Shown one piece after another: positions 7,208 to 34,892 of a DNA stretch of 58,980 nt. Origin of the DNA: Nitrospira sp. (lineage in GTDB: Bacteria > Nitrospirota > Nitrospiria > Nitrospirales > Nitrospiraceae). The stretch lies in assembly GCA_015903995.1 (NCBI GenBank), contig JABMDK010000006.1, forward strand, positions 139,273-198,252. Reading direction: 5' to 3'. The notes under the pieces are model-generated. The model was not told the DNA's origin. It searched no databases and saw nothing but the letters and a program-made list of their open reading frames with translations. Positions within the stretch are counted from its first letter, which is position 1. Every line of letters begins with the position of its first letter. The translations under genes were made by a program, and so were the position numbers.

Positions 7208-8032
7208 TTACTGGAGCAACGCCAGTGCCTGTTGCGGCAGTGTATTCGCCTGCGCGAGCACGGCGATACCCGCCTGCACCAGAACCTGGTTTTTGGTGAA
7301 TTGCGAGGTCTCGTAGGCAATGTCCGCATCGCGGATTCGCGATTCGGCTGCCGTCAGATTCTCGCTCGACACCTCGAGGTTCGCGATCGTCGCTTCAAAC
7401 CTATTCTGGAGCGACCCATACTCGGCGCGAGCGGTTGCCACGGAGCTGATGGCGCTGTCGATATTGCTCAACGCGCTCTGCGCGTTGTTCGCCGAGGACA
7501 CGTTCACGCTGCTGATACCCAGCGCAGAAATCGTCAGCTGGTTCAGGTCCATCGACAACGTGTTGCCTGTTCCGCTCTTGAATCCGACCTGGATGCTGAA
7601 GCTGATCGAGCTCCCGCTGGTCAAGGCTTGTCCGTTGAACTCCGTCACCTGCGCAATACGGTCGATTTCCGAACGCAGCGCCAAGAACTCCTGATCGATG
7701 TACGACCGTTCGGTGGCGCCCACCGTGCCGCTGGACGACTGCGACGCCAGTTCCCGAAGCCGGCCCAATAAGTTTCCGATCGTGGCGGCCGCTCCGTCGG
7801 CGATCTGCGTCAAACTGATGCCGTCCGAAGAGTTCCGAACAGCCTGGTTGATGCTGCGAATGTGCGCCCGCAAGGTTTCGGATAATCCGAGACCGGCCGC
7901 GTCGTCGGCGGCGCGAGTGATGCGAAGGCCGGATGAGAGACGCTCGACCGAGCGGCCCAAGCTTGCCGTGCTCACACCCAAATTGCGCTGGGCCGAGATG
8001 GATGCGGGGTTGTTGTTGACAATAATTGCCAT
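7208..8032 (-). CDS. fliC: Flagellin FliC
   Basis: 274 residues, a short flagellin made of D0/D1 helices with little D2/D3. The N-terminus (MAIIVNNNPASISAQRNL, then LSSGLRITRAADDAAGL) and C-terminus (AESRIRDADIAYETS, ending QQALALLQ) are diagnostic. The middle (~140-205) is rich in Ser and Thr, which could carry O-glycans. AAGGAGG lies 8 nt before the ATG. The gene has its own sigma28 promoter and a ~95-nt leader with hairpin and GGA motifs. It lies directly downstream of the glycosylation island, which suggests modification of this protein. Only one flagellin gene is seen in the window. Confidence 0.97.
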   Translation of the reverse strand: MAIIVNNNPASISAQRNLGVSTASLGRSVERLSSGLRITRAADDAAGLGLSETLRAHIRSINQAVRNSSDGISLTQIADGAAATIGNLLGRLRELASQSSSGTVGATERSYIDQEFLALRSEIDRIAQVTEFNGQALTSGSSISFSIQVGFKSGTGNTLSMDLNQLTISALGISSVNVSSANNAQSALSNIDSAISSVATARAEYGSLQNRFEATIANLEVSSENLTAAESRIRDADIAYETSQFTKNQVLVQAGIAVLAQANTLPQQALALLQ

Positions 8033-8223: not shown

Positions 8224-8754
8224 CTATCGGACCTCCAACCGCGGTAAAATCTCGTACTCCAAGAGATCCGCTACGCGAACACGGTCTCCGATAGCTCGCG
8301 CCTCCACCAGCTGTTGCACCCAAGGCGCCAGAGCGGATCCCCCGGTCCCTGCCTCCATCGTGGCCGAAACCCCATCGACGAATTCGAGGTAATCGGCCAG
8401 CTGCCCCAACCAGGCATCGAGCCCGGACAGCGACCACGGTCCGAATCCCAACGTCGAGAGCAAGGCCGTTCCCTCCCTGCGCAGCGTCTCTGCGTATTTC
8501 TTGATGGACCCGTCGGCCGCCCGTATGAGCTCAGGCATCGGCTGCGACACCGCCGTCAACTGCCGGAAGCGCACAACCGATTCCGCGAGAAACGCAGGGT
8601 CCAAGTCACGGTCCGTAATCGTACGCTGGTCAAGCTGCAGCTTAGTGACGATACGAGCTCGGGCATGCGCACGTTCACTGACCTCCGTCAGCACCTGTTC
8701 CATCGTCAGCGGCGCGTCGGCGTTCCAGCGGTCTTGATCGAGCATGATTTGCAT
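8224..8754 (-). CDS. Unknown 176-residue protein at the fliC end of the glycosylation island
   Basis: I do not recognise this family. It has no signal peptide or membrane segment. The sequence is mostly helical, with acidic patches, a Gly/Trp-rich turn near the middle (LGFGPWSLSG) and an N-terminal LTMEQVLTEVSERAHARA helix. The start at 8754 is chosen because AGAGGAG lies 8 nt upstream; an alternative ATG at 8772 overlaps the stop of the previous GT9 gene as ATGA. Either way it is coupled to that transferase. Its position as last gene before the flagellin promoter suggests a role in flagellin export, modification or transferase assembly, which is inference. Confidence 0.75.
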   Translation of the reverse strand: MQIMLDQDRWNADAPLTMEQVLTEVSERAHARARIVTKLQLDQRTITDRDLDPAFLAESVVRFRQLTAVSQPMPELIRAADGSIKKYAETLRREGTALLSTLGFGPWSLSGLDAWLGQLADYLEFVDGVSATMEAGTGGSALAPWVQQLVEARAIGDRVRVADLLEYEILPRLEVR

Positions 8755-8768
8755 GGGTCTGTCTCCTC

Positions 8769-10433
8769 TCATTCGATACCGGCATACGAGATAGGTGCGC
8801 GTGCCATCGGAGCGTCCACCCCTGGCGCAGATGCAAGGTGGGTAGCCATGAATTCCGTCTCGCGGCGCCAGCGATGATACGCCGCCGCATGATGCGTCGC
8901 CATTCGCTCCAGTCCTTGCACATTGTCCTGATGCAAGAGGCGAAGCGCCGCCGTGGTGAGCGGTTTTGTAGCCCACGTCGCCGCGCCGACCTGAGCGACC
9001 TTCTGACGCTCCTCCGTTTGAGCCCGCTGCAGCGCCTGAATGGTTTGGACGGGAAGCGGCATGTGCCTGGTGAGCCGAACGATGTGATCAGCCCGTCGGC
9101 AGAGACTGTCGAGCAACGGTCTCATCGCCCGAATACAGGCCACGCCCTCGTCGTGGTCCGGAGCAAGACCGGTGAGCGCCGGCAGCCGGCTCGGCTGGCC
9201 GGTGAACGACTCGTACCAGCGGCGTCGCCAGAAGGCCGCATACCAGGCCACCGCTGCATCTTCGTGGCCGGAGACGAGTTCATACCTACCCAGTTGATCC
9301 GCATCGACACCCGATCGATACAATCGATAGCCCGGTACGGCTGCAGGCAGTGGGCCCTGTCCCACCGCGTACTGCATGAGCGCAGCCACCGCATCGATCG
9401 GCAGCCGCTCTTTACAGGCGTGATGCGAACAGACCTGCTCAAACCCGCAGGGTGCGCACTCCAGATCCGGCTGCATCACCCAATGCCCCGGTCCGTACGG
9501 GCCGGTCTCCTGAAAATCCACATGGCCGACCGAGAGATCAACGACCGGAATCTGCACGCCCACGGCCAAATGCATCGGCCCAGTATCGTTCGTGAGCAAC
9601 AAGCGACAGTCCGCCAGCAGCGCGACCAGCTGCGCCAGCGTCGTGTGCCCGGCGGCATTCTTGATCGCGCTGCGCCCTCCGGCCTCGCGATATGTCCGGA
9701 TGACATCGGCGATCGTGCCCTGTTCCGAATGCGATCCGATAAAGAGGATGCCGCCGTCCCACTGTCGGCTGAAGCGGGCCAACGTCACACCGAAATGCTG
9801 CGGTCGCCAGGCTTTCATGACGTCACTCGCCCCTGCTTGCACCGCAATCCATGCGCGATTCAGCCCGTCGTGGCTCGACAGAAAACGCCTGGCCCAATCT
9901 GCACTTTCAGACGGCGCCGTCACACACAGTGGCGCAAACAAGCCTGGTCTGCTGCCCCCCATCGCATAGACATCGACGAGGTTGAATCGATTGATCCGAC
10001 GGATCTGATGAATATCGGTAAAGTACGCCATCCAGGGATTGTCGATAACTGTCCCACCGTCCCACGCGCTTCGCGCACCTCGGATATCAGGGGCACCGAC
10101 GTACTCAGCCAACAGCGCGCTGGGCCGGTTGAACGTCAGATTGACGATGCGATCGTAGCGACGCCGGCTCAAGTCCTCGGCCCATGCTGCGACTTCTCGA
10201 TACAGCACGACGGTATCCTTGACACAGGCACGGCTCTCATCGATCAACGCATGAAAATCGTACGCGATGATATCCCGCAACCCGTTCAGCATAGAGGCCA
10301 CGGGAGCGAATTGCCGATCGACCACGAGATCCACCGCTACACTGGGCCATTCTTCCCTGAGACGCGCCAACAGAGCGCCCATCTGCACGAGATCCCCCAT
10401 GCGGGTAATATTGAGGATCAACACTTGTTTCAT
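8769..10433 (-). CDS. GT9-family glycosyltransferase (heptosyltransferase-like) with C-terminal extension
   Basis: About 554 residues from the chosen Met (MKQVLILNITRMGDLVQM), which is the usual start of GT9 proteins. A longer frame to 10523 runs into a palindromic repeat and is rejected. The N-terminal Rossmann half carries the RxGDLV motif; the C-terminal half carries NDTGPMHLAVG, the GT9 donor-site motif, and a Cys cluster (CAPCG...C...C) common in GT9 enzymes of surface glycan loci. GT9 enzymes transfer heptose or related sugars from ADP- or NDP-donors. The last ~200 residues are an extra helical domain of unknown role. There are no membrane segments, consistent with a cytoplasmic enzyme. 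Confidence 0.85.
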   Translation of the reverse strand: MKQVLILNITRMGDLVQMGALLARLREEWPSVAVDLVVDRQFAPVASMLNGLRDIIAYDFHALIDESRACVKDTVVLYREVAAWAEDLSRRRYDRIVNLTFNRPSALLAEYVGAPDIRGARSAWDGGTVIDNPWMAYFTDIHQIRRINRFNLVDVYAMGGSRPGLFAPLCVTAPSESADWARRFLSSHDGLNRAWIAVQAGASDVMKAWRPQHFGVTLARFSRQWDGGILFIGSHSEQGTIADVIRTYREAGGRSAIKNAAGHTTLAQLVALLADCRLLLTNDTGPMHLAVGVQIPVVDLSVGHVDFQETGPYGPGHWVMQPDLECAPCGFEQVCSHHACKERLPIDAVAALMQYAVGQGPLPAAVPGYRLYRSGVDADQLGRYELVSGHEDAAVAWYAAFWRRRWYESFTGQPSRLPALTGLAPDHDEGVACIRAMRPLLDSLCRRADHIVRLTRHMPLPVQTIQALQRAQTEERQKVAQVGAATWATKPLTTAALRLLHQDNVQGLERMATHHAAAYHRWRRETEFMATHLASAPGVDAPMARAPISYAGIE

Positions 10434-10556: not shown

Positions 10557-12374
10557 TCAGACAAGGTCCCTCGTTTCCGCCCGATAACTATCCAGCATCA
10601 GGATCAACAGCTCCTCGCGCGCCAATTCCCGACCGGCGCCGTTCGCCTTGATCTGGGCCGCCACATCCTTGAGCTCCACGCGTTGGCCCGGCGGAAATCG
10701 CCGGAGCAATGCCGCAAGCTCGGGCGACGAATCGGCACGCCGCGCCAGCACACCGGCGTCACGATCACCCCGCACCATGGCTCCTATTCGATCCGGCTGA
10801 TGCATACCGATCGCCGCCAACAGCTCGCGCATACGATGTGCATAGGTATGCTGCGCCAACACACGGCGGCGCGCGGCGGCGGCGATGTCACACCGTCCGG
10901 ACGAATCGGCAAGCCAGGTGCGGATGAGCGACGGGACATCGGCCGCCTCGGTGAACCGGATCAGCTCATTGGGAGCGAACAGATCGGGAAGAAGTGATCG
11001 CTCGTCGACCAGTTGAAACGCGCCGCACGCCGCCAGCTCAAACGTCCGGGGATTGACGAAGTCCGCCTCCGGATCGAGCCCGTCGCCAGCATAGGAATGA
11101 AGATTCAGATTGACGGACGTGGCGTTGAAGACTTTGATGCAGGTTTCCATATCGATACGGGCGCCTCCGCGCTGGAGCACCGAGGCAAGACCATCCGCGC
11201 CGTCCCATTCATTGCCCCAAAGCTTGAACGACCAGTCCTTCGAGAGCCATCCAGGAAGCACCGTGCGTCGATTGGCATACCCCGCTCCGACGAACGACAC
11301 ATCGGCGCCATATTCGGCCTGTTCAGGCTCGGTGAGCTCCAGGCGTCGATGCAAGGCGGGATCGGCGGCCATCGGCAGATACTTGACCTGGCGTGCCCCC
11401 GCTCGCGTGAGCGCATCCACGCACGACGCTTGTTGGATGACGAACCAATAATCATACCCGCCCGCCAATTGCTGCCAATAGGTCAGGTGCCGATAGTTTT
11501 CGACGAACCACATGGCAGTGAGAAATTTCTTTTTACGCAGATGCTCTAGTACCGCAAGATTCAACGGCGCCTGTGCGAGCGCCAAGACGAGATCCGGAGG
11601 ATCTTCCGCAAGATGCGTCACTACACCCAAACTCAGCAGATCGGCAAACCGGCCTTGCATCGTGAGGCGATGCCGCGAATCTCGGTAGGATGCAAACTGC
11701 TCATAACTCGTCTGATACGGACTCTGATCCAACCAGCTGACCCGATGGCCCAACGATTCCAATGCCGCAACCGTATGGTGTGCGATCGGGAGCGAGCCGC
11801 CGTAGATCGGTCCGACGACTGCGACATGCAGTCGTCCACCCTCCTTGGCCGCAACGACCCGTCGAAGCTCCGTTTCCAAGTCGCGATGGGCGTCCGCATG
11901 CAGACACGCCGCCGGTCCGTACGTCATGAACCGAAGCGGCGCCGCCTGTGTAGCCAGCTGCTCGGCCATGGCCACCGGCGTTCCCCATATCCATTCGACC
12001 CTGCTGACCCAGGCCTCCATCGGTCTGGTCGACACAGCATCTTTGAACTCAGCCACATCCGGCACGACGACCGCCAGCCTCGCCCCCTGAGGCTTGAGCG
12101 CGACCAAGGCCTCGACGTGATAGAGCAAACCGACACCAAGCACGACCCCGAGTTCGCCCGCTTTCCATTCGAGCAAGTGGGATTCGGCCCATGTGCGGGC
12201 TTCTTTGCGCGGATCATATCCGCTGTGAACCCATCGCCCTTCGTGCGTTGCCGATGGACTTCCCTCCCGAGACGGCACGACGGTCAAGAGACCGCCAGGG
12301 CTCTCCTGCGTGGTCTGGACAAGCGCCGGGTACCGTGTGCGAAGGCCTTCGAGATTCTGCGCCAGATAGTTCAT
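10557..12374 (-). CDS. CgeB-type glycosyltransferase with extra N-terminal domain
   Basis: 605 residues. Residues ~180-540 fit the CgeB/DUF3880 transferase fold: LHVAVVGPIYGG at the N-lobe, DVSFVGAGYANRR at the lobe junction, then a Glyco_trans_1_2-like lobe with LNLHSYAGDG and FVNPRTFELAACGAFQLVDE. The first ~170 residues (LGVVLGVGLLYHVEAL, LAVVVPDVAEF) resemble the N-terminal Rossmann-like part seen in Maf/DUF115 flagellin-modification proteins. The ATG overlaps the upstream GT9 stop (TGATG), so the two are translationally coupled. It probably adds a sugar to the island's glycan; donor and acceptor are unknown. Confidence 0.8.
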   Translation of the reverse strand: MNYLAQNLEGLRTRYPALVQTTQESPGGLLTVVPSREGSPSATHEGRWVHSGYDPRKEARTWAESHLLEWKAGELGVVLGVGLLYHVEALVALKPQGARLAVVVPDVAEFKDAVSTRPMEAWVSRVEWIWGTPVAMAEQLATQAAPLRFMTYGPAACLHADAHRDLETELRRVVAAKEGGRLHVAVVGPIYGGSLPIAHHTVAALESLGHRVSWLDQSPYQTSYEQFASYRDSRHRLTMQGRFADLLSLGVVTHLAEDPPDLVLALAQAPLNLAVLEHLRKKKFLTAMWFVENYRHLTYWQQLAGGYDYWFVIQQASCVDALTRAGARQVKYLPMAADPALHRRLELTEPEQAEYGADVSFVGAGYANRRTVLPGWLSKDWSFKLWGNEWDGADGLASVLQRGGARIDMETCIKVFNATSVNLNLHSYAGDGLDPEADFVNPRTFELAACGAFQLVDERSLLPDLFAPNELIRFTEAADVPSLIRTWLADSSGRCDIAAAARRRVLAQHTYAHRMRELLAAIGMHQPDRIGAMVRGDRDAGVLARRADSSPELAALLRRFPPGQRVELKDVAAQIKANGAGRELAREELLILMLDSYRAETRDLV

Positions 12375-13522
12375 CAGAGGGCCGGCTCCAGTGTATGCCA
12401 GAGCGCTTCCCGTTCAGGCGGGGCAATGGCCGCCTGGCCGACCGGCGCATAGTAGGCGCCCCATGTATCGCAGTGGCTCATCCATACGCTCCAACCTTCC
12501 GGTGCCTGATAACCCTGTTCCAATACCGCTGCAACGGTTTCGTCGACCGGCCAGGTTTCCTCTCTCGCCTCGTCGGCCTGCCACACGACATGATCGACGC
12601 CATACGGTCCGGTTTCATGGACCCGTGCCCGCGCAAAATACCAACCGATCACCGGTCTGCCGAGCGCCGCAGCAAGATGCAGCGGGCCTGTGTCCGAACC
12701 GACGACTCGATGGCATCGAGCGAGAATGGCGGCAAGCTGTGACAGCGAGGTGCGACCGGTCGTGTCCCAAATCCGTCCCAGAACCGACGGAGGCAACGGC
12801 GCTTGAATCTCCGCCGCTCGTTCACACTCTGTTCCGACCAGCACGACACGACCCTGCGGTGCGGACGCGAAAAAGGAGTTGATCCACCGGCGCCAGACCT
12901 TCGTGGGCACACACCGCTCGGCCTCCCCTGCTCCCACAATGAGGGCGATCCACGGAGCACCCTGTTTGCCGATTGGTTCCAAATCATCAGGCAATCGGAC
13001 AACCGGAGGATCGAGCGTGACGACATATCCTGGAGGAGAGACTCCACAGAGCCCGCAAAACGCATCCGCCAAATGTACGCGTTGCCCCAGCCGCCGCTGC
13101 GCCACATCGCGTACGTAGGCGGCCCAGGGCGTCAAGGCATCGCCGAGCGGCCCATGCAACACCGGTCCTTGCACCTCGCGAGCCAATAAGGAGCCGGCCA
13201 CCAACGCCCGACGATGTTGATTGAGAACATAGGCACAATCATACCGGTCCGGTGCCAATTTCATGAGCGTTGTTTCTATTTCCACCAGATGCTCCGCTCG
13301 CAGGTCTTGTTGGGCAGCCATCGCCCGCTGTTGCCAGGCCGCTCCGTCCCACTCGAGAACCTTCTCAATGCCCGGCAGGAGACGCCCCACCTCTGCCAAA
13401 TGAGACGGGCAGAGGAGATCGAACTGCGTCTCGGGATGACGCACATGGAGTTGCGTCATCGCCGGCAGCGACTGCAGGAGATCCCCCAATCGAGCCAGTT
13501 GTATGACGAGTGCGCGTGACAT
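12374..13522 (-). CDS. GT9-family glycosyltransferase (heptosyltransferase-like)
   Basis: 382 residues, the normal GT9 length. It begins MSRALVIQLARLGDLLQSLP (RxGDLLxSLP motif), and the C-terminal lobe carries GSDTGPLHLAAALGRPVIGWYF, the conserved donor-site motif. It probably transfers heptose or a related sugar in the cytoplasm. It lacks the Cys cluster and long C-terminal domain of the paralogue at 8769. It overlaps the next gene by one base (TGATG) and is 57 nt downstream of the giant transferase, so it belongs to the same transcription unit. Confidence 0.88.
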   Translation of the reverse strand: MSRALVIQLARLGDLLQSLPAMTQLHVRHPETQFDLLCPSHLAEVGRLLPGIEKVLEWDGAAWQQRAMAAQQDLRAEHLVEIETTLMKLAPDRYDCAYVLNQHRRALVAGSLLAREVQGPVLHGPLGDALTPWAAYVRDVAQRRLGQRVHLADAFCGLCGVSPPGYVVTLDPPVVRLPDDLEPIGKQGAPWIALIVGAGEAERCVPTKVWRRWINSFFASAPQGRVVLVGTECERAAEIQAPLPPSVLGRIWDTTGRTSLSQLAAILARCHRVVGSDTGPLHLAAALGRPVIGWYFARARVHETGPYGVDHVVWQADEAREETWPVDETVAAVLEQGYQAPEGWSVWMSHCDTWGAYYAPVGQAAIAPPEREALWHTLEPAL

Positions 13523-13579: not shown

Positions 13580-16500
13580 TCACGAATGTGCGGCTTCCAT
13601 CATCGGCACGGCTTGTTTCGCTGCGATCGCCTGTCCAAGTTCGATCAAGCCGTCGTATGTCGGTGCCAATGTGCGCAGGGTGTCGTATTCTTGACGGGCA
13701 GCCTCGACCTCTTCTCCTCGAACCAGCACACCGGCCAGCGCAAAACGGATCGCCAAGTCGGCCGGATTGCGCGACAGGTATTTGCGTAGATGCCGGCTTA
13801 GTTCACCCCAACGGTTTTGCCCGGTGCCGGCCCGCAAGAGCCAATGGATCGCTTCGGCATCATCCGGAAACTCCTCCAATACTTGCAGAAACCGTTCCCA
13901 AGCGCCTTGCGTATAGGCGCGACCCAACGAGGCCATCCCCATCCCCATCAGGCACTTTTTACGATTGGCCCCGCCACGCAATGCCGACTCAAATGCGGCC
14001 TCGGCTGACTCGTATTGTTCCCGCTGCATGCACAGCACACCTTTCATCAACAATCCTTCCGCATGATTCGGGGAAGACGCGAGCAGGGTCCGGAGATGTT
14101 CTTCCGCCCCCGCCAAGTTCTTCTGTTCGAGCAAGGTTCGGATCAGTGCGGCCCGCTCAGCCGGTGCGTCGACCAACGCCAGATAGCGCGAGAGAAACTT
14201 GGTACGACTGATCGGCTCCTGAAGGCGTTCCGCCACCATCGCTCCCCAGGACAACACAAATCGGTCGTTCGGCCAATTCTCCACCAGCCCTAGTTCACGC
14301 TTTACAGATTCCCAATCCTTCTTCACCGCAGCCGCTTGCACAGCCGCAACATGAGCCCATGCCGCCCGATCACAGATGTCAATCAAGGGCTTCACGTCTG
14401 TCGCAAACTTCTCATCCTGAGGTCCACCAACTAGCTTGAATCCATCAATGTGGTAGTAGAAGTCTGCGTCTTCTATCCACCAATGGTCACCCCAGCGTTC
14501 TCCCAACAGCCGGGCGTTCTGCTCATCACGATCGCTACGGCCTGACGTCTGACTTTCCAAGTGATAGACCACGCTCCGCGGCTGGTAGATCACATGATGC
14601 CCTTGCTCTCGAACTTTTAGACAGAGGTCCACGTCTTCGAATCCATTGATGAAACACTCATCAAACCCCTTCACTTTCTCGAAGACTTCCCGGCGAATCA
14701 GCATGCAGGCCGCCGTCACCGCTTGAAATTCTCGTCGCTGATTGACCGCGGACATGGTACTCGGAGCTGCGCGATAGATGTGATACGGAATCACACGCGA
14801 CCGCATAAACACCACGCCGGCATGTTGCACCGTGCCATCGGGATACAACAGTTTGCTGCCGACGATGCCCACATCCGAATGGGCATCCACTTCGGATACC
14901 AGCGGGGGAAGCCAGCCTGGTTGTGGAATCGTGTCGTTGTTCAAGAACACCAGGTACTTGCCGTGCGCTGCCCGTGCGCCTTGATTACAGGCTTTGGCAA
15001 AGCCAAGATTTTCCTGATTGGTGATGACTTGAATGTCACCGCCGAGCGTCGAGAGAAAAGACGCGGTGTCATCGGTCGAGTGGTTATCGACCACAATCAG
15101 CTCCCATGAGATATCATCGGTCGTTTTGGCCAGAGCTTCGATACACTGACGAGTCAATTCACATCGATTCCATACCGGTATGATGATGGAGCAGGCGCAA
15201 GACTTCACGGATGCTTCAGCCTGGAACTTTTGAAGATGCCGCTGCTGGGCCTCACGGATAGCGGCATTGCCTTCTGCATAGGGTGCGTACTTGCGATAAA
15301 TAATCTCCGTCGTGCGCTTATAGGTATCTCGTGTTCTGCTTGTCATGGACGAACCGTCACTTCTCCAGGTGAACTCGGCTGTCCTCACCGCCAGATGCTT
15401 GAAGGGAAACCGGGTGGCCATCCTGATCCAGAGATCCCAATCTTCATGCGCGAACAGCGATTCGTCGAACCCCCCCACCTCGTCCAAACATTGCCGCGCA
15501 TGCATGACACACAACACGGGGAAGTAATTGCTGATCAGGAGATCGACCGGACTGAACTCATTCGAGTACGGCACATCGCGCGCGGTCTCGACATATCCGC
15601 CGTCGACCTGTCGTTCATGCACGCGCCAGGCATCCGTATAGGCCACGCGGCATTCATGCCGATCCAGATACGCGACGAGCGTTTCCAAATGATTCGGGAG
15701 ATACCGGTCGTCGTCGTCGAGATAGGCGATGTAGGTACCCTTCGCCGCGCGAAGTCCGCTGTTGCGGGCCGCGGCCAATCCGCGGTTCCGATCGTGACGG
15801 ATGATCGTAATCCGGTGCCGATCGGCGCAGGCGTCGATGACGGCTCCCACCTCGCAACCTGCGTCGTTGACGACAACGACCTCAAAGTCTTGATAGGTCT
15901 GTGCCGCCAGACTGGCGAGCGCTGTCTTTAGACGCTCCGGCCGATTGTATGTCGGCACGATGACCGACACCTTCGGCGCGCGCGTAAAGGGAATGGGGCG
16001 TGGATCGGCGGTTCGCTGACAAACCCACACTTGATAAATAGGAAGCAGATTCATGGAGCGCAGATCGGCCGGCGTGGGAGCCGGGATGTATCGGAGACTC
16101 GACGGTTCGACGTGGACACGTTCGAGGCCCAGTTCCGAGAATCCCTGCGATACAAACAACGCGCGCAACTGGTCTTCGGTAACCCAATCTTCCACCGGTT
16201 GATTCGGCGGTGCGATCCTCTTCCACTGTTCCCACATTTCGCCGCGTGGCGTCGTGAGAATGAGGTAGCCGTCTGGCCTGAGCAGTTGAGCCAGTTGTGC
16301 AAGGAATGCTTCCTTTTGTCCGTGCGGGACATGTTCGATGACTTCGGACGTAAGCACGACGTCGTAGGGAGCAAAATCCGAACGACTCAAGACACTCTCC
16401 GCCGTGCCAACTTCGAATCTGAGGTGAGGGAACAGCTTGCGCGCGTGCTCAACGACGGCGGCGACCGGCTCAATGCCCTCACAGGTCCCGTACATTGTCG

Positions 16501-19500
16501 CAAGATTGGTCAACCAGCCTCGTCCGCAGCCGATGTCTAAGATTCTCAGCTGCTTGTTCGGCCCCTGCTCCCGAACACGGCGCAAGATGTACTCCAAGAA
16601 TGCCGCGATCTTGCTCCAGCGGCTCGCCTCATCCGCGTTCGGATGGGGCGTCGACCACATCGGCGAGTTGACGAACAGGTTCTTATAAAACGTGTCTGAG
16701 TGCATGCCCCCTCCGTTGGTCTGTCCAACCACGTCGCTTACCGACTGCCCGTTTCCTGCCGTTGTTGTTTCGCTTGCCCCCAACCTCACTCGCGCTAATT
16801 GACCGGCAAATGCCTGTCGTTGCGCAGTCGTACGTTCAGCCACGTCAGCCGGCATGGTATAGGATCTGCTCAACCGTCCCGTTTCAATCAATTCGATCCA
16901 CCCCTCCAGCACGGCAGACCATTGGTGACAGGCTTCCCAATGCGCGTAGCCCGTTTCACCGAGCGCACGGCACAAGGTCGGTTCCTGCATCAGTCGCACT
17001 ACGGCCCGCTTAAAGCTGTCTAAAGGAAGCACCACGCCACCGGCCTGTTCATGTGCGGCGTCGCATTCGGGCGTCGCCATCCACGGCAAGCGATGGCTCA
17101 TGGCTTCAAGAATGCACAACGGAGAGGCTTCCGCATGTGAAGGTACGACCAGCACATTCGCCGCCTGCATGGCCGCCGCGACGCCCTCGGGCGAAAGCCC
17201 TGGAATATAGAGGACCTCCGGTCGACCGGCCAGCGCCTGCCGTACTTGCTCGACATACCCAGTGTCGTCTGTCTGGTGGCCGACCAACACAAGTTTTGCG
17301 CCTTGCGGCATGGTTGCAAATGCCTGAAGCAGCCCTAAGTGATTTTTAACCGGGTAGAGATTCGCGACATGGAGAATGATGAACGCATCAGGCGCAATGC
17401 CGTGCTCCTCGCGAAACGCCCCCTTGGCCTGTATGGCTCGGATGCCGTTGGGCAGATAGGTCGCCGTGAGCCCATGGCGTCCGAAAAAAGAGGCATCGCA
17501 ACCGTGTTTCGACAACACCACCAACTGATGCGCATGGGCCACGAGCTGAATCACGAGGTCTTTGACCTGACTCATGCCGGACAAGAGGTCGCAAATTTCT
17601 TTATTCAGTGTCGGTTGAACAATGAGTCTGGTCCGGTCCGGCAACGGACGAGTCATCGCTCCATAGAACAGAGGGTTGACCGGTGCGCCCAACATGACAC
17701 AGGCGTCGTACTGTCTGGAGCCGATCAGCCGCTCCACTTCCAGCGCGCAGGCAGGAACAGACCCTACTTGACGGTCATGGGGAGACAGTGTGATGACCTT
17801 GACCCCTCTGTGCGTCGTTGCGTGACGCCCGGCATGAGGATAGGCGGCAACGTCGACATGGTATCCATGGGCCAGCAGTCCGACCCCCAGCTCTTCCGCG
17901 ACACACTCCACTCCTCCGATCGAGGGCCAGAAATGCGGCGTCACAATCAGCACTGATTGGGTCGGCGATCCGTTTTCCCACTTCGTGGCACAGCCAACAA
18001 CGGTGGACATCCGACTTTGATCACCCTCGCCCTTCCACTGCACCTGTTCAAAGGGGATCGGCCTATGCACGGGCGGCGACGCTTCTCGCGCAGCAGCATA
18101 GGATTGCGTCAGCGGTGGATTCGACAGAAAGAGCCGCCTGAACACATCAAGTTCCGCGAGCTCGTAGAGACGGGCATCCTTCTCGCGGTCGGGCGCCAGC
18201 GGGGCGCAGATAATACCGTGCGCCGCGCCCAACAATGCAAACAGCTGGAGTGGATCGCCGGTTTGGCGAAACGCATCTGCCTTGCGGCGGATGTCCGACG
18301 TCAGAACATTCCATTGCCGGATATCCTTCTCATACATCGTCTTGTAGCGCCGGTAGATGCTGTCGACCGTGTAGGACGTGCCATGACGACCCTTGACGTC
18401 CGGATGGAGAATCCATTGGATGCCGCGACGCCCCATCTGCTCCAGAAGATCCATCTCGCTGGCTTTGATATCTCGGAACGCCAACGACTGCATGAGCGCC
18501 GTTCGATAGATCTTGACCCCCTGGATCGGCAACCCTCGATCATCGTCGAACAGGTGGAAACAGATCATCCCCACATCATCGGGCGCCTGCCGGATCGTGG
18601 CCTCCATCGAAGCCACCGCATCCAGATGGAGCATCATGTCCTCATCGACCTGAATAAAGAACTCGGTCGCACACCCTGTGATCATCCGTTGCGCCGCCGC
18701 ACTGAAGGGGCAAACGTTTCGGATGACCTCCAGCTTGAACGATGTCCCTTCCTGTTTGTGTAGGGACTCCAGGCAAGCCGCACATACAGGATCATCCACC
18801 GTCAACACGAAGACCGTCGTCGCAACCTGTGCCTCCGATTCAGACTTGTGGACAGTTGGCATGACCACTGGTGAAGACGAGCATGCGCCAGTCGATTGTT
18901 TCTCAGCGGCAATTCCGTAATCCGGTTCCTTTCCAGTCTCAATCCACTCCAGGACTTGCTGCATGCGCCGTTCCGCCGTGTGATAGGTGTGCACCTTGCG
19001 CTGTCCCTGAGAGCCTATCGTTCTGGCGAACTGCTTATCCGTAAGAATGCGATCAATCTGGTGTGCCAATGCGCTCGGATCATCGGGTGAGAACAGCAGG
19101 ATCTCCCGGTTGTCCTCAAACAAGGCATTGACTCTGGGCCTGTCGGGAATGCGCCAGGAAATGACCGGGCGTCCTACCGCCATAGCTTCATACACCCGGC
19201 CGCCGAAACAGCGAGTCAGACCGGGAAGGTTGACGATACCGGCCCAGTCGGCGAGTCCCGACAACCAGTCGTGAAACTCTCCCTCGCGCACAGTGTGTAG
19301 GGCCCGAACGTACCGCTCCAGATCTACAGCAGTCACCAATGGAAGATGTCTCACCCGCTCACTTGAAATCGATTGGAGTTCATCGAACTTCCGTTGATTC
19401 GGCGTGTATTGAACCGGCGCGTTCGCAAACGTCATTCGCTCACGCAGCAGAGGATGCTCGATCCACCGGGCGCGTTCACCATACACATTGCCGTGGAAGA

Positions 19501-20029
19501 CGGCTCGATTGTGACGAGGATCGTGTGGAATATCCGCAATGAAGCGACGCGGCACTAACCCGGGACACCAGAGAGCAGGCGTTGTCCCGAGTGCCGTGAG
19601 TTCAGCTACATCTCGTTCATCCACCAGCAAGGCGTGCGTGAGGTACTCAAGCTGGTGGTGAAAGACGATATGCCGATTCCGCAATTCGGGAGCCCAACGA
19701 TAGTCCTCTTCCTCATACCGCAGCGATTCCATGAAGAAGCCAATGCGTACGGGAGCAAGCTCCGCCACCCATTCGAGGATCTGCACATCGAGGGACGCAT
19801 GGACGAGCCATATCCACACCTGATCGAATCGTTCTCCGGCCAGTATGCGGCGGGCATGAGACAACCACGAGTCGGGAGAAGAAGCCGCTGCATCAGGAAT
19901 GATCGGAACAGTCACGCAGGTGACTCCGTTGGCGGCGAGCCCATCGGACACAGCAAAGCTCGCTCCGTAAGTCCAGGGTCTGGCCGTTTTCCAGGTCGGA
20001 AACTCGAGTTGGAGAAGCAATGCTTTCAT
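13580..20029 (-). CDS. Giant multi-domain glycosyltransferase/methyltransferase with TPR tail
   Basis: About 2,149 residues from MKALLLQLEFPTWKT (a longer frame adds 19 poor residues). Approximate domains in order: 1-360 GT1/CgeB-type transferase (GRVYEAMAVGRPVISW); 400-640 GT-A fold transferase with a DxD-like VDEDMM; 690-1050 GT4 transferase (PHFWPSIGGVE, ASPLCILEAM); 1110-1340 class I SAM methyltransferase (LDIGCGRGW, TSEVIEHV); 1350-1590 GT2 transferase (VIVPTYNRP, YLDDDDRY); 1610-1870 second GT2 (SIIIPVWNR, FLNNDTIPQ, NGFEDVDLCLKV); 1940-2130 TPR-like repeats. It could assemble a whole oligosaccharide on one scaffold, with methylation as a cap and the TPRs docking the acceptor. AGG lies 6 nt before the ATG, and a sigma54-like site lies upstream. 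Confidence 0.9.
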   Translation of the reverse strand: MKALLLQLEFPTWKTARPWTYGASFAVSDGLAANGVTCVTVPIIPDAAASSPDSWLSHARRILAGERFDQVWIWLVHASLDVQILEWVAELAPVRIGFFMESLRYEEEDYRWAPELRNRHIVFHHQLEYLTHALLVDERDVAELTALGTTPALWCPGLVPRRFIADIPHDPRHNRAVFHGNVYGERARWIEHPLLRERMTFANAPVQYTPNQRKFDELQSISSERVRHLPLVTAVDLERYVRALHTVREGEFHDWLSGLADWAGIVNLPGLTRCFGGRVYEAMAVGRPVISWRIPDRPRVNALFEDNREILLFSPDDPSALAHQIDRILTDKQFARTIGSQGQRKVHTYHTAERRMQQVLEWIETGKEPDYGIAAEKQSTGACSSSPVVMPTVHKSESEAQVATTVFVLTVDDPVCAACLESLHKQEGTSFKLEVIRNVCPFSAAAQRMITGCATEFFIQVDEDMMLHLDAVASMEATIRQAPDDVGMICFHLFDDDRGLPIQGVKIYRTALMQSLAFRDIKASEMDLLEQMGRRGIQWILHPDVKGRHGTSYTVDSIYRRYKTMYEKDIRQWNVLTSDIRRKADAFRQTGDPLQLFALLGAAHGIICAPLAPDREKDARLYELAELDVFRRLFLSNPPLTQSYAAAREASPPVHRPIPFEQVQWKGEGDQSRMSTVVGCATKWENGSPTQSVLIVTPHFWPSIGGVECVAEELGVGLLAHGYHVDVAAYPHAGRHATTHRGVKVITLSPHDRQVGSVPACALEVERLIGSRQYDACVMLGAPVNPLFYGAMTRPLPDRTRLIVQPTLNKEICDLLSGMSQVKDLVIQLVAHAHQLVVLSKHGCDASFFGRHGLTATYLPNGIRAIQAKGAFREEHGIAPDAFIILHVANLYPVKNHLGLLQAFATMPQGAKLVLVGHQTDDTGYVEQVRQALAGRPEVLYIPGLSPEGVAAAMQAANVLVVPSHAEASPLCILEAMSHRLPWMATPECDAAHEQAGGVVLPLDSFKRAVVRLMQEPTLCRALGETGYAHWEACHQWSAVLEGWIELIETGRLSRSYTMPADVAERTTAQRQAFAGQLARVRLGASETTTAGNGQSVSDVVGQTNGGGMHSDTFYKNLFVNSPMWSTPHPNADEASRWSKIAAFLEYILRRVREQGPNKQLRILDIGCGRGWLTNLATMYGTCEGIEPVAAVVEHARKLFPHLRFEVGTAESVLSRSDFAPYDVVLTSEVIEHVPHGQKEAFLAQLAQLLRPDGYLILTTPRGEMWEQWKRIAPPNQPVEDWVTEDQLRALFVSQGFSELGLERVHVEPSSLRYIPAPTPADLRSMNLLPIYQVWVCQRTADPRPIPFTRAPKVSVIVPTYNRPERLKTALASLAAQTYQDFEVVVVNDAGCEVGAVIDACADRHRITIIRHDRNRGLAAARNSGLRAAKGTYIAYLDDDDRYLPNHLETLVAYLDRHECRVAYTDAWRVHERQVDGGYVETARDVPYSNEFSPVDLLISNYFPVLCVMHARQCLDEVGGFDESLFAHEDWDLWIRMATRFPFKHLAVRTAEFTWRSDGSSMTSRTRDTYKRTTEIIYRKYAPYAEGNAAIREAQQRHLQKFQAEASVKSCACSIIIPVWNRCELTRQCIEALAKTTDDISWELIVVDNHSTDDTASFLSTLGGDIQVITNQENLGFAKACNQGARAAHGKYLVFLNNDTIPQPGWLPPLVSEVDAHSDVGIVGSKLLYPDGTVQHAGVVFMRSRVIPYHIYRAAPSTMSAVNQRREFQAVTAACMLIRREVFEKVKGFDECFINGFEDVDLCLKVREQGHHVIYQPRSVVYHLESQTSGRSDRDEQNARLLGERWGDHWWIEDADFYYHIDGFKLVGGPQDEKFATDVKPLIDICDRAAWAHVAAVQAAAVKKDWESVKRELGLVENWPNDRFVLSWGAMVAERLQEPISRTKFLSRYLALVDAPAERAALIRTLLEQKNLAGAEEHLRTLLASSPNHAEGLLMKGVLCMQREQYESAEAAFESALRGGANRKKCLMGMGMASLGRAYTQGAWERFLQVLEEFPDDAEAIHWLLRAGTGQNRWGELSRHLRKYLSRNPADLAIRFALAGVLVRGEEVEAARQEYDTLRTLAPTYDGLIELGQAIAAKQAVPMMEAAHS

Positions 20030-20104
20030 CAATAACCTGAGATGCCACCAGAAGGTGTACAGTCGTATGCCGCAGCACTGACTCACCTGCTCAGTTGAGC
20101 GATA

Positions 20105-20289: not shown

Positions 20290-22185
20290 TTACGCCGCCA
20301 GAGGAATTGCCAGCGCATTCAGGGTTCGGACGCGATCGGCGATCTCCCTCATGCCCAACACCGTAAATCGTTTCGTCCAGTATGCCGACTCCTCCTGAAA
20401 ACGTTTCGCCAACGTGAGGCGCCGCTGGCTCTCACCGAATTCACGCAGCTTTGACGCAATGACGGCGAGAAACAGATTGCCCATCGCATTGTCGACCGTG
20501 TACTCATCGGTGATTTGCTGCAGCATCACCCGGATGTTTCGCAGCTTGATCGGTTCGTGAACATGGAGCAACTTCTCATAGTTCATTCTATAGTCGGCAA
20601 CGAACCAAAGGTCATCCAGCTCCGCACTCGTCGGCACATGATCAGCAGGGAGCGTCTGCAATAGATCCACGAATTCCAGCGCTTCATACTTCTCCGCCCG
20701 TTCCCGCTGACGCAGCGTACCGCCGCCTTTGCTCTTCGAGCCGGCCGCCAACCCCTTGAAGCTGGCATCGGTCGGCGGTGTGATCAGCCCCTGTTCGATC
20801 ATGCTCACGGTGATTTCCGTTCCGGGAAGCGTGGTCAGCAGCTGCAAGGGATACCAGCCGAATTGCAGTTCGCATCCCAAGTTCACGGTGTCGCGAATTT
20901 GCGCGATCGTCTCGTGAGGGAATCCGATGATCATGAAGCCTTTGACAAAGACATGGGGGTAACGATCCAGGATGGCGCGGGCCTGCCGATAGCTTTTCGT
21001 CGTGCCGGGCTTGTGAATGGATTTCAGAATCCGGTCGTTCCCCGACTCCAGACCAAGATTGAATCCGATACAGCCGGATTCCGATGCCGCCTGCATGATC
21101 TCAGGCGTGATGGCTGCCGCAATCAATCCGTTGCTGGCATCCCAGGTAATGCGGAGATTGCGCCTGGTGATCTCGTTGAACAGCGCAATCGCGCGCTTGC
21201 CGTTGTAGAGCAGGTCGTCGTCGAGCCACATGAAATGAGTCACGCCGTAGGTCGTGTAAAGGCGCTCCATTTCGTCGGCCACGTTGGAGACGGCCCGGCC
21301 GCGAACGCTGATGTCGTTGAAGTTTCGGACGGCGCAGAATGAACACATCGCCCGGCATCCTCGATTGCTGATGATCGTGGAGGCCGTCCGTTCCCCCCGC
21401 ATGAAATTGTAGGCGCCCATGGAGCCATAACGCGAGTAGTCCCCAATGGGCAAATCGTAATATTCCGGTTGAATATCCATCTCCCGATCGGATGGCGTCG
21501 CCCGTTCCTTCGTTGAAACCAATTGCTCCCCTGTGAGGATTGCTACCTGTCTGATTTCTGATTCCGGCTGTTTCCCATTGATCACATCCAGCAAGTCCGG
21601 GAAGCTGCGGTCCCCTTCATAAAAGCTTCCGATGTCGATTTGCGGAACCGTGCGTAAGATAGACTCCACATCATTGGAGACACAGACACCGCCGGCAATA
21701 ATCGGACGCGAGGGATAGTGCGATTTAAGAAATGCAGCAACGTCGGCAAGCGACGGCCGTGAAATGGTGAACATGACGCTGATCCCGATCAGGTCAGGTT
21801 GAAACTCTTCGATCTTTTCGGCCAGCTTTTCTTTCCATATCTGAAAGCTGAAGTTCGATGGATTCTCATGGACATGTTTCAAGACATGAAAATTCAGGTC
21901 GAGCAAGGCGCTCCGGTACCCTCGCTGTTCAAGGTTGCGCGCAAGAATGCCTGGTCCGTAAGGAGGAAAACAGGGATAGCGCTTGCTCAGGACCAGGTGA
22001 TGGTTGAAATCATTTTCCGGTGATTCCGGAGGCGTAACCAAGAGCACTCGGCGGCATCCGTGCGGGAAGAGGCCGGTAAGGTGATTATAGATGGCCTGCC
22101 TGGCGAGTCCCAGGTTGTCCCTGTCCGGAGGAGCGCTTGAACAGCCGCTGTCGGATGCGATTACGTCCAATGTTTTGCTCGTCAT
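20290..22185 (-). CDS. B12-binding-domain radical SAM protein (1)
   Basis: 631 residues. The N-terminal Rossmann part (~45-200, VLLVTPPESP, FPPYGPGILARNLEQRGY, GGVCVSND) fits the cobalamin-binding domain of class B radical SAM enzymes, without the DxHxxG His ligand. The radical SAM core has the CxxxCxxC cluster at Cys277, Cys281 and Cys284 (RGCRAMCSFC), followed by WLDDDLLYNG and a GLESGNDRIL motif. The C-terminal ~150 residues are helical. Such enzymes methylate unactivated carbon or rearrange sugars, lipids or peptides; the substrate here is unknown. GGAGGGGAG precedes the ATG. It is the third of three tandem paralogues in transcription order. Confidence 0.88.
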   Translation of the reverse strand: MTSKTLDVIASDSGCSSAPPDRDNLGLARQAIYNHLTGLFPHGCRRVLLVTPPESPENDFNHHLVLSKRYPCFPPYGPGILARNLEQRGYRSALLDLNFHVLKHVHENPSNFSFQIWKEKLAEKIEEFQPDLIGISVMFTISRPSLADVAAFLKSHYPSRPIIAGGVCVSNDVESILRTVPQIDIGSFYEGDRSFPDLLDVINGKQPESEIRQVAILTGEQLVSTKERATPSDREMDIQPEYYDLPIGDYSRYGSMGAYNFMRGERTASTIISNRGCRAMCSFCAVRNFNDISVRGRAVSNVADEMERLYTTYGVTHFMWLDDDLLYNGKRAIALFNEITRRNLRITWDASNGLIAAAITPEIMQAASESGCIGFNLGLESGNDRILKSIHKPGTTKSYRQARAILDRYPHVFVKGFMIIGFPHETIAQIRDTVNLGCELQFGWYPLQLLTTLPGTEITVSMIEQGLITPPTDASFKGLAAGSKSKGGGTLRQRERAEKYEALEFVDLLQTLPADHVPTSAELDDLWFVADYRMNYEKLLHVHEPIKLRNIRVMLQQITDEYTVDNAMGNLFLAVIASKLREFGESQRRLTLAKRFQEESAYWTKRFTVLGMREIADRVRTLNALAIPLAA

Positions 22186-22381
22186 GTCCGCTCCCCTCCG
22201 TCCTCTACGCTCGCCTCATTCTCGCTGGCCGGACCGGCATACGGCTGTCTGTTCGAAGAGACCTGGGCATGGCGCATGCTTGAATCGATGTCTCATCGTT
22301 GTCCGGCAGTCCCCACTGTGTCTCGGCCGAAGTGCCTCGTCATATGTGTGATCCGTCCCGCACGCTCAGGATTTCATGGGT

Positions 22382-24271
22382 TCACGCGGCCAGTTTCTGA
22401 CGAAGAGAGACGACCATGCGATCAAAATTCACCAGTGCCGCATGCGGTTCGAATTGTCCGCGGTGACGGTCATAGTACTCAAGGGCTTCACGGTGGGCGT
22501 TCCGTTCGCACATGGACACCATCCGATTCAGAAACTCGTACAACTCCAACGGAGGGACTTGGGCCCGCCCGACAAGGTTGGTCCCGCTATCCGGTTTGCA
22601 CGCAAGCTGATCCGCAGGCAGTTCCTCTTCAGCGCCTGTCTCCGTTTCAACTGACAAGAGAAGCCCCTTGCCTTTTGCGACCGGCACGTTGAGACGAACT
22701 CGCTTATAGCAATGGAGACATCCTGTAATGACTTGGAGCCCGTGAGTGGGGACGTGCCCTGGTTCCGTCAATTCGACAAACGAGAATTCTCGCTTACAGT
22801 GCGGACACTCTGCGAAGAGTTCCCAGAACTTTCTGGTTCCGCCCAATGTCATGCGATTGTGAATGGCGCGCTGGAGAACCCGAGTGACATCCACCGTCAT
22901 ACAGTACGGAAGACTTTCAAACGCATAGATGGCGCGCAGATACCCGATCCACATGGCATCCGGCATCTTCGTCATATTGAACGGAGTCTGGTCGATCGTT
23001 TTATAAAAGGCCAATTTGTCAGGGAGCAGCCCCATCTCCTGAGCGACCCCATACAACGCACTGCCTGGGTAGGGTTGAATACCACTCATGAAACAATGAA
23101 TGTCTGCACAATATTTCCGGTAGAAATCCAACGTCTCCGAAATCGTTTCCGGAGTTTCCGCTGGATCGCCGAAGATGAAATTCCCTCCGAACCCGATCTC
23201 AGCCTGTTCGGCCAAGGTGATGGCCTCGGCATACTGATCAGGATGGGTGCCTTTCTTCATGCTCTTCAGTACGCGGGGACTCGCACTTTCCAACCCATAG
23301 CTGAAATAAGTACATCCTGCCCGCTTTGCCAATTGGAGGGACTCAAGATTCAACCGCGCATTCGCATGTGTCTGAAACATCCAGTCGAAATCCCACCCGT
23401 ACCGCTCCCGATACTCGAGCAGAATGCGGCAGAACTCTTCTAATTTCTGCTTGTTGACGGCAAACAGCTCATCCAGCACGATGAGAATATTGAACGGATA
23501 GCGATCATAGAGGTACTTGATCTCCTCCATAACGTTCTCCGTCGTGCGAGCCCGATATTTCGCTCGCCCCCCGTGTCCGTGGAGACAAAATGTACAGGCG
23601 AATGGACATTCGCGTGCGGACACGATGGGCATGAGCTTCGGATTCTGACGGGTAAAGCGATACAACGGACGGGCGGCCCATGAAGCCTCCAACATCCCCT
23701 CGATGTCGAAGATGGAATAATCGGGAAAGGGATAGGTGTTCAAGTCCCGGCCGAATTTGAGATTCTTTTCCGTGAACACCAATTGCCCATCTTTCTGGTA
23801 GCAGAGATTGGGGATGGCATTGAGGTCGCCCTGCCGTTCAAGCGCATCGGCGAGCATGACGATCGTATCGTCGGCTTCACCGGCAAGAGAATAATCGGGC
23901 TTGAGAGCCGAATGAATGAACTCCTGATCGTAGGTGATGATCGAACCGCCCATGACAACCGGAACAGACGGAGCGTAGTGGCGGATAATGTGCAACGCAT
24001 CGTGCACGAACCGGAAATCGGTGCAGAGTCCGCCGATCCCGATCAAATCAGGCTTTGTAGCGGTGATCGCGCACGCGAGCTTGTCGTGAACCATGTCGAG
24101 CGCGGAGGGATAACCCGGTGCATTGTTGGGATTGCACCCAAACACCTGGTGACCGGCGGCCTTCAGCGACGCGGCAATGTAGGCAAAGCCGCATGAAAAG
24201 TCAGACGGCGCCAAAAAAGACGGATATTGCGTCGTATAACGGTAGGTCGGTGGGATCAGCAATATTTTCAT
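22382..24271 (-). CDS. B12-binding-domain radical SAM protein (2) with C-terminal zinc ribbon
   Basis: 629 residues. N-terminal B12-binding-like domain (~1-150; ILLIPPTYRYT, MGGSIITYD). Radical SAM cluster at Cys222, Cys226 and Cys229 (RECPFACTFC), then GLESASPRVLKSMKKG, the usual SAM-binding stretch. After the core comes a CPHC...CLHC pair of knuckles (Cys489, 492, 518, 521), which I read as a small zinc ribbon, and then a helical tail. The zinc ribbon may bind a protein or nucleic acid partner. GGGAGAG lies upstream of the ATG. It lies 99 nt from the upstream paralogue and ~196 nt from the next; I see nothing clear in either gap. The substrate is unknown. Confidence 0.88.
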   Translation of the reverse strand: MKILLIPPTYRYTTQYPSFLAPSDFSCGFAYIAASLKAAGHQVFGCNPNNAPGYPSALDMVHDKLACAITATKPDLIGIGGLCTDFRFVHDALHIIRHYAPSVPVVMGGSIITYDQEFIHSALKPDYSLAGEADDTIVMLADALERQGDLNAIPNLCYQKDGQLVFTEKNLKFGRDLNTYPFPDYSIFDIEGMLEASWAARPLYRFTRQNPKLMPIVSARECPFACTFCLHGHGGRAKYRARTTENVMEEIKYLYDRYPFNILIVLDELFAVNKQKLEEFCRILLEYRERYGWDFDWMFQTHANARLNLESLQLAKRAGCTYFSYGLESASPRVLKSMKKGTHPDQYAEAITLAEQAEIGFGGNFIFGDPAETPETISETLDFYRKYCADIHCFMSGIQPYPGSALYGVAQEMGLLPDKLAFYKTIDQTPFNMTKMPDAMWIGYLRAIYAFESLPYCMTVDVTRVLQRAIHNRMTLGGTRKFWELFAECPHCKREFSFVELTEPGHVPTHGLQVITGCLHCYKRVRLNVPVAKGKGLLLSVETETGAEEELPADQLACKPDSGTNLVGRAQVPPLELYEFLNRMVSMCERNAHREALEYYDRHRGQFEPHAALVNFDRMVVSLRQKLAA

Positions 24272-24370
24272 TCTCTACTCTCCCTGGAAAAGCCTCCACT
24301 GCGCTATCACAATGAGATGGCCAGGCCGTACCCATTCCTCTCGACGGTGAACGGCTGCGATCCCTCACCA

Positions 24371-25963
24371 TTAGGCGGCCGGTATGAGGGTTAGGCGACC
24401 TTCTTCTCCACGACTATCTTCTTGCGATACGGCTTCTGCATATCGTCTACGAAGCCGATGCTTGGTCATGTCTCGGATATGTTCGACCGTGTCCTTGCCG
24501 AATCTCGCTGCGACATGTTCGAGATATCGAGGATGTTCAAAAAATGTGTGGAATGCAGTGTCTCGAAAACTCAGGACGGCCCCAGCCGAGACATGCTCGG
24601 TCGGAAGCGGAAGAGCCTCGTAGGCATGCTGGGAATAGCCGATCCAGATATCCGGCAGAGGCAGATGTTTCTCCAACGCGATCTCGTAGAGTTTCGATCC
24701 AGGATAGGCCATGGCCGAGTAGAAATTCGCCCAATCTGGGCAGAGCTCGATGGCCAGATCCAGCGTCTCCTGCATGGTGACCAGCGTGTCGTCGGGAAGT
24801 CCGAAGATGAAATTCGCCCCGATATTGATATCCGAGGCGCGAATCTTCTCGAAAATCTCCTTGATATCCTTCTTCCCGAAACTCTTGTCTACACCGTCGC
24901 GGACGTATTTACTGGCGGATTCGATGCCGATGCCCAGCCAGTTGACCCCCGCCTGCTTCAGCTTCTTCAGCATGCTGTCCTTGACCGTATCGATCCGCGC
25001 GTAGGCCCAAATGTTTAGGTCATAGCTCCGCTCGATGATGAGGTCGCAGATGCCGAGGACCTGCCGCTCGTTCAGGATGAACATTTCGTCGGCCATCTTG
25101 ATGTTGCGCACGCCGTATTTCGTGACGAGTTCATCGATTTCCCGGATCACACTGTCTGGACTACGGTAGCGAATCATCGGTTTTCCGAATGGCGTGTTGA
25201 TGCAGCAGAAGGAGCATTTAAACGGGCATCCGAGACTGGTATACATCGACGCATAGGGCTTGCGATCGTCGAGACGCCCGAAACAGTGCCAATTGTGGGC
25301 ACGGTATTTCTCCATCGGAAGTAGGTCCCAGGCGACCGCACGCAGATCCTTATCCAGGTCTTCGATCACCGGGGCCTGCGGCGTTGAGCAGATGACGCCC
25401 TGCTTCCGATACCAGAGTCCGCTGACCCGGTTGTAGTCGACCGGCCCTTTCCACTCAGCCTGCTGCAGGAGGCCGAGCAGGGTATAAGGCCCTTCACCTT
25501 GACAGACGAAGTCGACGGACTCTTCCCGCATGGTCCGTTCCGGCAGTGCCGACGGATGCAAGCCGCCCATGAGCAGCGGCTGGTCCGGCACAAGACGCTT
25601 GATGGCCCTGCAGACCTCTCCGGCAGCCGTCATGTTTTGGGTCGATGCAGAAGGCTGTTGTCCATAAACAATGACGGCGGTCAATCTCGGGTTCTGTTGG
25701 CGTACTTGCTCTGCGACTGCTTCCGACCCGATGCCTTCCGCTTCGGCATCCAGGATCTGGACGGAATAGCCGCGGTCCCGGATGAATGTCGCCATCAAAC
25801 CGATCCAGACCGGCGGCTCGACCGCCGCCAGATCAGAGGCGAGGCTCTGATAGACCCGGGCTCGCGAGTTCGGATTGATGAGCAACAGATCAAGCCGTCC
25901 AGGAAGTGTCACAGCATGCTCCTGCGAGCGGCAGGCTGACGTTACTGGTCCGATCTGGAGCAT
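24371..25963 (-). CDS. B12-binding-domain radical SAM protein (3)
   Basis: 530 residues, the shortest of the three paralogues. The N-terminal B12-binding domain (~25-165) includes LLLINPNSRARVYQS, MGGLHPSALPERTM and DFVCQGEGPYTL, typical of the Elp3/MiaB-related B12-binding group. The radical SAM cluster is at Cys246, Cys250 and Cys253 (GCPFKCSFC), followed by a GIESASKYVRDGV segment. The start at 25963 has GGAGGGGATCC upstream. It is 45 nt behind the E1 beta gene and is probably co-transcribed with the sugar pathway. A carbon-methylation or sugar-remodelling role is inferred from family and context. Confidence 0.88.
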   Translation of the reverse strand: MLQIGPVTSACRSQEHAVTLPGRLDLLLINPNSRARVYQSLASDLAAVEPPVWIGLMATFIRDRGYSVQILDAEAEGIGSEAVAEQVRQQNPRLTAVIVYGQQPSASTQNMTAAGEVCRAIKRLVPDQPLLMGGLHPSALPERTMREESVDFVCQGEGPYTLLGLLQQAEWKGPVDYNRVSGLWYRKQGVICSTPQAPVIEDLDKDLRAVAWDLLPMEKYRAHNWHCFGRLDDRKPYASMYTSLGCPFKCSFCCINTPFGKPMIRYRSPDSVIREIDELVTKYGVRNIKMADEMFILNERQVLGICDLIIERSYDLNIWAYARIDTVKDSMLKKLKQAGVNWLGIGIESASKYVRDGVDKSFGKKDIKEIFEKIRASDINIGANFIFGLPDDTLVTMQETLDLAIELCPDWANFYSAMAYPGSKLYEIALEKHLPLPDIWIGYSQHAYEALPLPTEHVSAGAVLSFRDTAFHTFFEHPRYLEHVAARFGKDTVEHIRDMTKHRLRRRYAEAVSQEDSRGEEGRLTLIPAA

Positions 25964-27831: not shown

Positions 27832-27842
27832 CGATGATCCTC

Positions 27843-29045: not shown

Positions 29046-29047
29046 GG

Positions 29048-29878: not shown

Positions 29879-29888
29879 AGGGTCGCTC

Positions 29889-31699: not shown

Positions 31700-31732
31700 C
31701 GAACCTCTCCTTCTGTACGTTGGCCGACCACG

Positions 31733-32680: not shown

Positions 32681-32695
32681 GGAAAGAGCGACTCC

Positions 32696-34845: not shown

Positions 34846-34892
34846 GGCGTTCACTCCAACTTCTTTTGTTTCGACCGGCCGCATCAACTCCG

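Follow-up and report, generated by a model that had tools for sequence, protein, structure and literature searches.

What is made by a single gene that joins five glycosyltransferase modules, a methyltransferase and a TPR region in one chain, and why does it stand at the head of a flagellin block? We addressed this question in a window of 58,980 nucleotides (the whole stretch of DNA analyzed) from Nitrospira sp. (assembly GCA_015903995.1, contig JABMDK010000006.1, positions 139,273 to 198,252). Nitrospira is an important group of nitrifiers. For the Nitrospira homologues of this protein, neither enzymatic activity nor the structure of a glycan nor binding to flagellin is known to us. The gene lies on the minus strand, where the frame runs uninterrupted for 2,149 codons from the ATG at 20029 to the stop at 13580. 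A GTG at 20086 is a possible alternative start that would add 19 residues, but the alignment of relatives starts at the ATG. A plus-strand reading of the same interval was ruled out by many stops. No tandem repeats were found when the megagene region was searched for them.

The modules of the megaprotein were labelled M1 to M7. From the N terminus to the C terminus, these are a CgeB/GT1-like GT-B glycosyltransferase, a GT-A, a GT4, a SAM methyltransferase, two successive GT2 and a TPR solenoid, the same list and order that the first-pass annotation had read from the sequence. Pfam matched Glyco_trans_1_2 (residues 274-361) and GT4 (705-840 and 871-1027) in the front half, and Methyltransf_23 (1148-1297), GT2 (1355-1465 and 1613-1833) and TPR (1956-2062) in the rear half. 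The direct Pfam scan of the window's copy gave no glycosyltransferase match for M2 (~400-690), and the GT-A assignment comes instead from homologues and structure. Weak matches to Glycos_transf_2 were found in 13 of 19 M2 homologues, and the AlphaFold model (pLDDT 72, C-terminal third badly modelled) matched GT-A enzymes in Foldseek with E-values down to 1e-7 and probability 1.0, at low TM-scores (~0.4). The M7 model is a long TPR-like solenoid (pLDDT ~95). Catalytic residues, whose absence the earlier annotation had named as a ground for doubt, were present: the D462-E463-D464 motif of M2 is invariant in the alignment of homologues, as are E967/E975 of M3, G1167-x-G1169-x-G1171 of M4, D1438-D1441 with E1529-D1530 of M5, and N1697-N1698-D1699 with E1798-D1799 of M6 across 13 full-length homologues. 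M6 also has weak sequence similarity to polypeptide GalNAc-transferases. In PHROGs, M6 matched generic phage glycosyltransferases only and a search with M2 gave no match, while viral contigs showed only weak partial matches to the megaprotein (28-34%).

Table 1 Features of the megagene locus, with positions in the window.
Feature	Position	Strand	Evidence
Seven-module megaprotein, 2,149 aa	13580..20029	-	ORF, Pfam, motif alignment
M1, CgeB/GT1-like GT-B glycosyltransferase, residues 1-385, exchanged module	18875..20029	-	Pfam, identities, AU tests
M1/M2 linker, residues ~365-400, site of recombination break	18830..18937	-	25-aa identity windows
M2, GT-A glycosyltransferase, residues 400-690, D462-E463-D464	17960..18832	-	Homologues, AlphaFold/Foldseek
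M3, GT4 (GT-B) glycosyltransferase, residues 691-1075, invariant E967/E975	16805..17959	-	Pfam, alignment
M4, SAM-dependent methyltransferase, residues 1080-1340, invariant GxGxG	16010..16792	-	Pfam, alignment
M5, GT2 glycosyltransferase, residues 1345-1600, invariant DDDD and ED	15230..15997	-	Pfam, alignment, model
M6, GT2 glycosyltransferase, residues 1605-1884, invariant NND and ED	14378..15217	-	Pfam, alignment, model
M7, TPR-like helical solenoid, residues 1885-2149	13583..14377	-	Pfam, model
GT9 (heptosyltransferase-like), constant neighbour	12374..13522	-	Pfam, synteny
CgeB-like glycosyltransferase (Glyco_trans_1_2 and DUF3880), constant neighbour	10557..12374	-	Pfam, synteny
GT9 (heptosyltransferase-like), constant neighbour	8769..10433	-	Pfam, synteny
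Small conserved protein in the GT9/FliC interval, without Pfam match, in nearly all relatives	8224..8805	-	Synteny
Short flagellin FliC, 274 aa, only terminal domains	7208..8032	-	Pfam
FlaG	6774..7136	-	Pfam
FliD, short form, 468 aa	5347..6753	-	Position, sequence, homology to FliD at other loci
FliS	4933..5325	-	Pfam
rSAM1, B12-binding radical SAM enzyme, linked to the window's M1 type	20290..22185	-	Domain search, co-occurrence, identity
rSAM2 and rSAM3, B12-binding radical SAM enzymes	22382..25963	-	Domain search, identity
Sugar-precursor cassette	26009..34887	-	NCBIfam matches below curated cut-offs

M1 to M7 were found in identical order in 18 other genomes of the Nitrospira family, spanning two genera, and the relatives that carry names are Nitrospira. 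Most of the genomes compared were MAGs, and the 18 full-length carriers include single-contig assemblies (G024, G022 and G245). Measured module by module against the closest relative, dN/dS was 0.08-0.23, and all seven modules are under purifying selection. One could suspect an accidental fusion, or a chimera made in assembly, of inactive modules: the identity profile along the megaprotein is mosaic, and in the M4-M7 type described below homology extends slightly upstream beyond in-frame stops. An assembly fusion is ruled out, however, by the occurrence of the full-length form in 18 independent genomes, the single-contig ones included. Since the order is kept, the motifs are invariant and selection is purifying, the megagene is neither an assembly error nor a decayed gene. 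The multi-genome evidence already counts as refuting the chimera, whose remaining probability is negligible. The fusion of seven modules in one chain, which the first-pass annotation had left exposed to a frameshift or an assembly error, was confirmed by the open frame, by Pfam, homologues and structure, and by the 18 other genomes.

We found that the modules ahead of M6-M7 vary around this pair. M6-M7 (GT2 plus TPR) forms the C-terminal end of all relatives mapped at flagellin loci in the family (copies cut by contig ends left out), and M6 is the sole constant catalytic module of the megaprotein. The front architectures include M1-M7 (~2,150-2,320 aa), M1 with M4-M7 (~1,480 aa) and M4-M7 (1,051 aa). 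Other front ends joined to M6-M7 are CgeB with two GT2, an FkbM-type methyltransferase, another methyltransferase, or three GT4 domains. M6-M7 was also found without M5, which is absent or replaced in many relatives. Two megagenes were observed in G017 (L033 and L034), with the three-GT4 copy beside flagellin and a type A (M1-M7) copy on another contig; the pair may reflect a duplication or a mixed bin. One Nitrospiraceae MAG encodes the chain as two adjacent proteins, M1-M3 and M4-M7 (L113:8110-15548). In another family of the phylum, we observed two adjacent giant ORFs of 2,325 and 1,780 aa in which several stretches resemble glycosyltransferases (G221, L083:6553-18866).

The megagene heads a fixed block, mega-GT9-CgeB-GT9-orf-fliC-flaG-fliD-fliS, whose synteny is kept across the genus and the family, with a similar form in one other family. 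We searched 175 genomes of the family and compared the presence of the M6-M7 core with flagellin length, where long flagellins were those of 626-787 aa. The core was present in 106 out of 106 short-flagellin genomes and in 0 out of 13 long-flagellin genomes (Fisher p 1e-17, ignoring shared ancestry). Short and long states both occur within genera g1 and g14, and genomes of the genus that lack the core mostly lack flagellin altogether. G127, which is nested with G029/G094 by RpoB among the close kin of the window, has a long flagellin (652 aa), a long FliD (780 aa) and Maf-like and NeuB/NeuC-like genes at its locus (L123:2189-18109). It also retains a second fliS, 85% identical to that of the window. 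With these genes and the leftover fliS, the locus points to replacement of the whole short-flagellin system by a long-flagellin/Maf system. The Maf/nonulosonate system is the alternative in this genome. Its Maf has an MptE-like domain (PF01973), which is not among the Pfam matches listed for the megaprotein, and the two systems were never seen together at a flagellin locus.

The modules differ in their nearest relatives. By RpoB, G085 is the nearest relative of the window, and G030/G025/G022 lie at the far side of the genus. Identity of the window to G085 is 82-99% from M7 through FliS. M2-M5 are 74-88% identical to G085/G029/G024/G094 versus 47-69% to G030/G025, whereas M1 is 79-84% identical to G030/G025/G017 versus 45-51% to kin (~46% to G085). 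M1 together with the upstream genes is 78-99% identical to G030/G025/G017/AM_1104. In trees, M1 groups with G030/G025/G017 and M3-M5 group with G029/G024/G016/G085/G094, and alternative groupings were rejected (AU p 2e-70 for M1, 9e-9 for M3, 1e-4 for M4 and 2e-40 for M5). Identity windows of 25 aa place the break in ancestry between M1 and M2 within residues ~365-400, which form the linker. M6 has its affinity with yet another set of relatives (G031/G012/G018 and L103) and departs from kin at ~1625-1890. Judged by these identities and trees, the window's megagene is a recombinant mosaic with breaks in or near the inter-module linkers.

A run of three radical SAM genes, rSAM1-rSAM3 (20290-25963), adjoins the megagene upstream; the ancestry of rSAM2 is unlike that of rSAM1 and rSAM3. 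Beyond it, the cassette is predicted to encode a TPP-dependent E1 beta/alpha pair, an aminotransferase, an SDR, a nucleotidyltransferase, a GHMP-type kinase, an epimerase, an Fcl-like reductase and a DegT aminotransferase; with NCBIfam scores below curated cut-offs, we give families rather than exact reactions or the name of the sugar. The E1 pair within this sugar locus (26009-27831) may give the sugar a two-carbon branch or an acyl group. Out of 34 genomes of the genus, exactly three have a close rSAM1, and these are the ones with the window's M1 type. These patterns suggest that M1 arrived with the upstream sugar genes in a joint horizontal transfer, whose direction we deduce from RpoB. The M1-bearing contig of G017 is separate from its flagellin contig, so this genome may be mixed. 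The G+C profile across the region was smooth and did not reveal a cassette border.

The megaprotein is best read as making and methylating an oligosaccharide, as had been suggested from its module order. We consider it a likely cytosolic megaenzyme for flagellin O-glycosylation, in which the core would handle flagellin and the exchangeable modules would set the glycan. Co-occurrence and linkage to fliC make flagellin most probably its target, and like flagellin O-glycosylation enzymes as a class, it is encoded with flagellin genes and has glycosyltransferase folds with catalytic residues. In the mechanism we infer, from flagellin substrate and TPR docking to the order of action, the sugar identities and the link between M1 and its donor, M7 would most likely dock unfolded or chaperoned FliC. 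This step is proposed by analogy with Caulobacter FlmG, whose TPR domain binds flagellin directly and sets specificity in cytosolic O-glycosylation (PMC7591256). The adjoining M6 would put a proximal sugar on FliC, by the same analogy, although the initiating transferase could instead be among the three constant glycosyltransferases outside the megaprotein. The glycan would be extended by M5, M3, M2 and M1 and by these three separate enzymes (two GT9 and one CgeB-like), one sugar would be methylated by M4, and the glycosylated short flagellin would be exported via the flagellum. Recombination near linkers would exchange one or more modules ahead of M6-M7, and the M1 type would move with upstream genes making the sugar donor that M1 presumably uses. 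That the modules form a collinear assembly line, with module order matching sugar order from the C-terminal flagellin-binding core outward, is a tentative and rather doubtful extension.

Two other functions were weighed. M5 and M6 might form one bifunctional polymerase of the K4 chondroitin polymerase type that makes a repeating polysaccharide, with the other modules priming, capping or methylating it. In Foldseek, the M5-M7 model indeed has its best structural matches in K4CP (E 5e-22) and heparosan synthase 2, enzymes that like M5-M6 have two catalytic GT2-type GT-A domains in tandem. However, the two-domain TM-scores of ~0.3 indicate a different domain arrangement, and those polymerases lack a methyltransferase, a TPR region and further glycosyltransferase modules. 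M6-M7 is constant, while many relatives lack M5 or have another module in its place; because M5 is dispensable, we rank this explanation low and regard it as improbable.

The mixture of sugar genes with GT9, GT4 and GT2 enzymes also resembles LPS loci, so the megaprotein might synthesize a surface polysaccharide or a part of LPS unrelated to flagellin and adjoin fliC by chance within an O-antigen-like locus. Such a role would hardly predict the strict division of the core between short- and long-flagellin genomes, its absence from most genomes without flagella, or the conserved position of the megagene heading the fliC-fliS block, and we regard it, too, as improbable.

Flagellin glycosylation islands, TPR-containing flagellin transferases and glycosyltransferase-methyltransferase fusions are already known. 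FlmG resembles the megaprotein as a cytosolic glycosyltransferase with a TPR domain; it has 596 aa, with the TPR at the N terminus and one GT-B domain for pseudaminic acid (PMC7591256). The megaprotein departs from this family layout of an N-terminal TPR followed by one GT-B, as its TPR is C-terminal and fused to a GT-A within a chain of five glycosyltransferases and a methyltransferase. No PKS/NRPS-like carrier domain was among the Pfam and NCBIfam matches listed for it. The islands of Enterobacteriaceae and Geobacillus carry variable glycosyltransferase, methyltransferase and sugar-precursor genes beside flagellin, and GT41-methyltransferase fusions occur in such islands (PMC4875605, PMC5109656). 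The variation there is described as lying between separate genes, whereas in Nitrospira single modules inside one gene vary as well, in front of a C-terminal core that stays fixed. In Pseudomonas syringae, Fgt1, Fgt2 and VioT, transferases from the flagellin glycosylation and viosamine islands, are described as building a short flagellin oligosaccharide of modified viosamine-rhamnose-rhamnose, a task divided there among several proteins (PMC3927599). Our literature search, with most subscription journals outside its coverage, found no match for a single-gene, module-swapped enzyme that combines a linked sugar cassette with a constant core on the flagellin side, and nothing on flagellin glycosylation in Nitrospira.

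Flagellin glycan variation is described as gain and loss of separate genes; here it would occur inside one gene, with sugar genes travelling with the transferase module that presumably uses that sugar. This suggests that genomics alone can pair a domain with a sugar pathway, and that natural chimeras reveal module boundaries tolerant of swapping. The strict pairing with short flagellin raises the idea that the glycan might substitute for the outer domains absent from it. If the collinear reading is true, linker recombination together with matching donor genes would rewrite the flagellar glycan by one or a few sugars per event.
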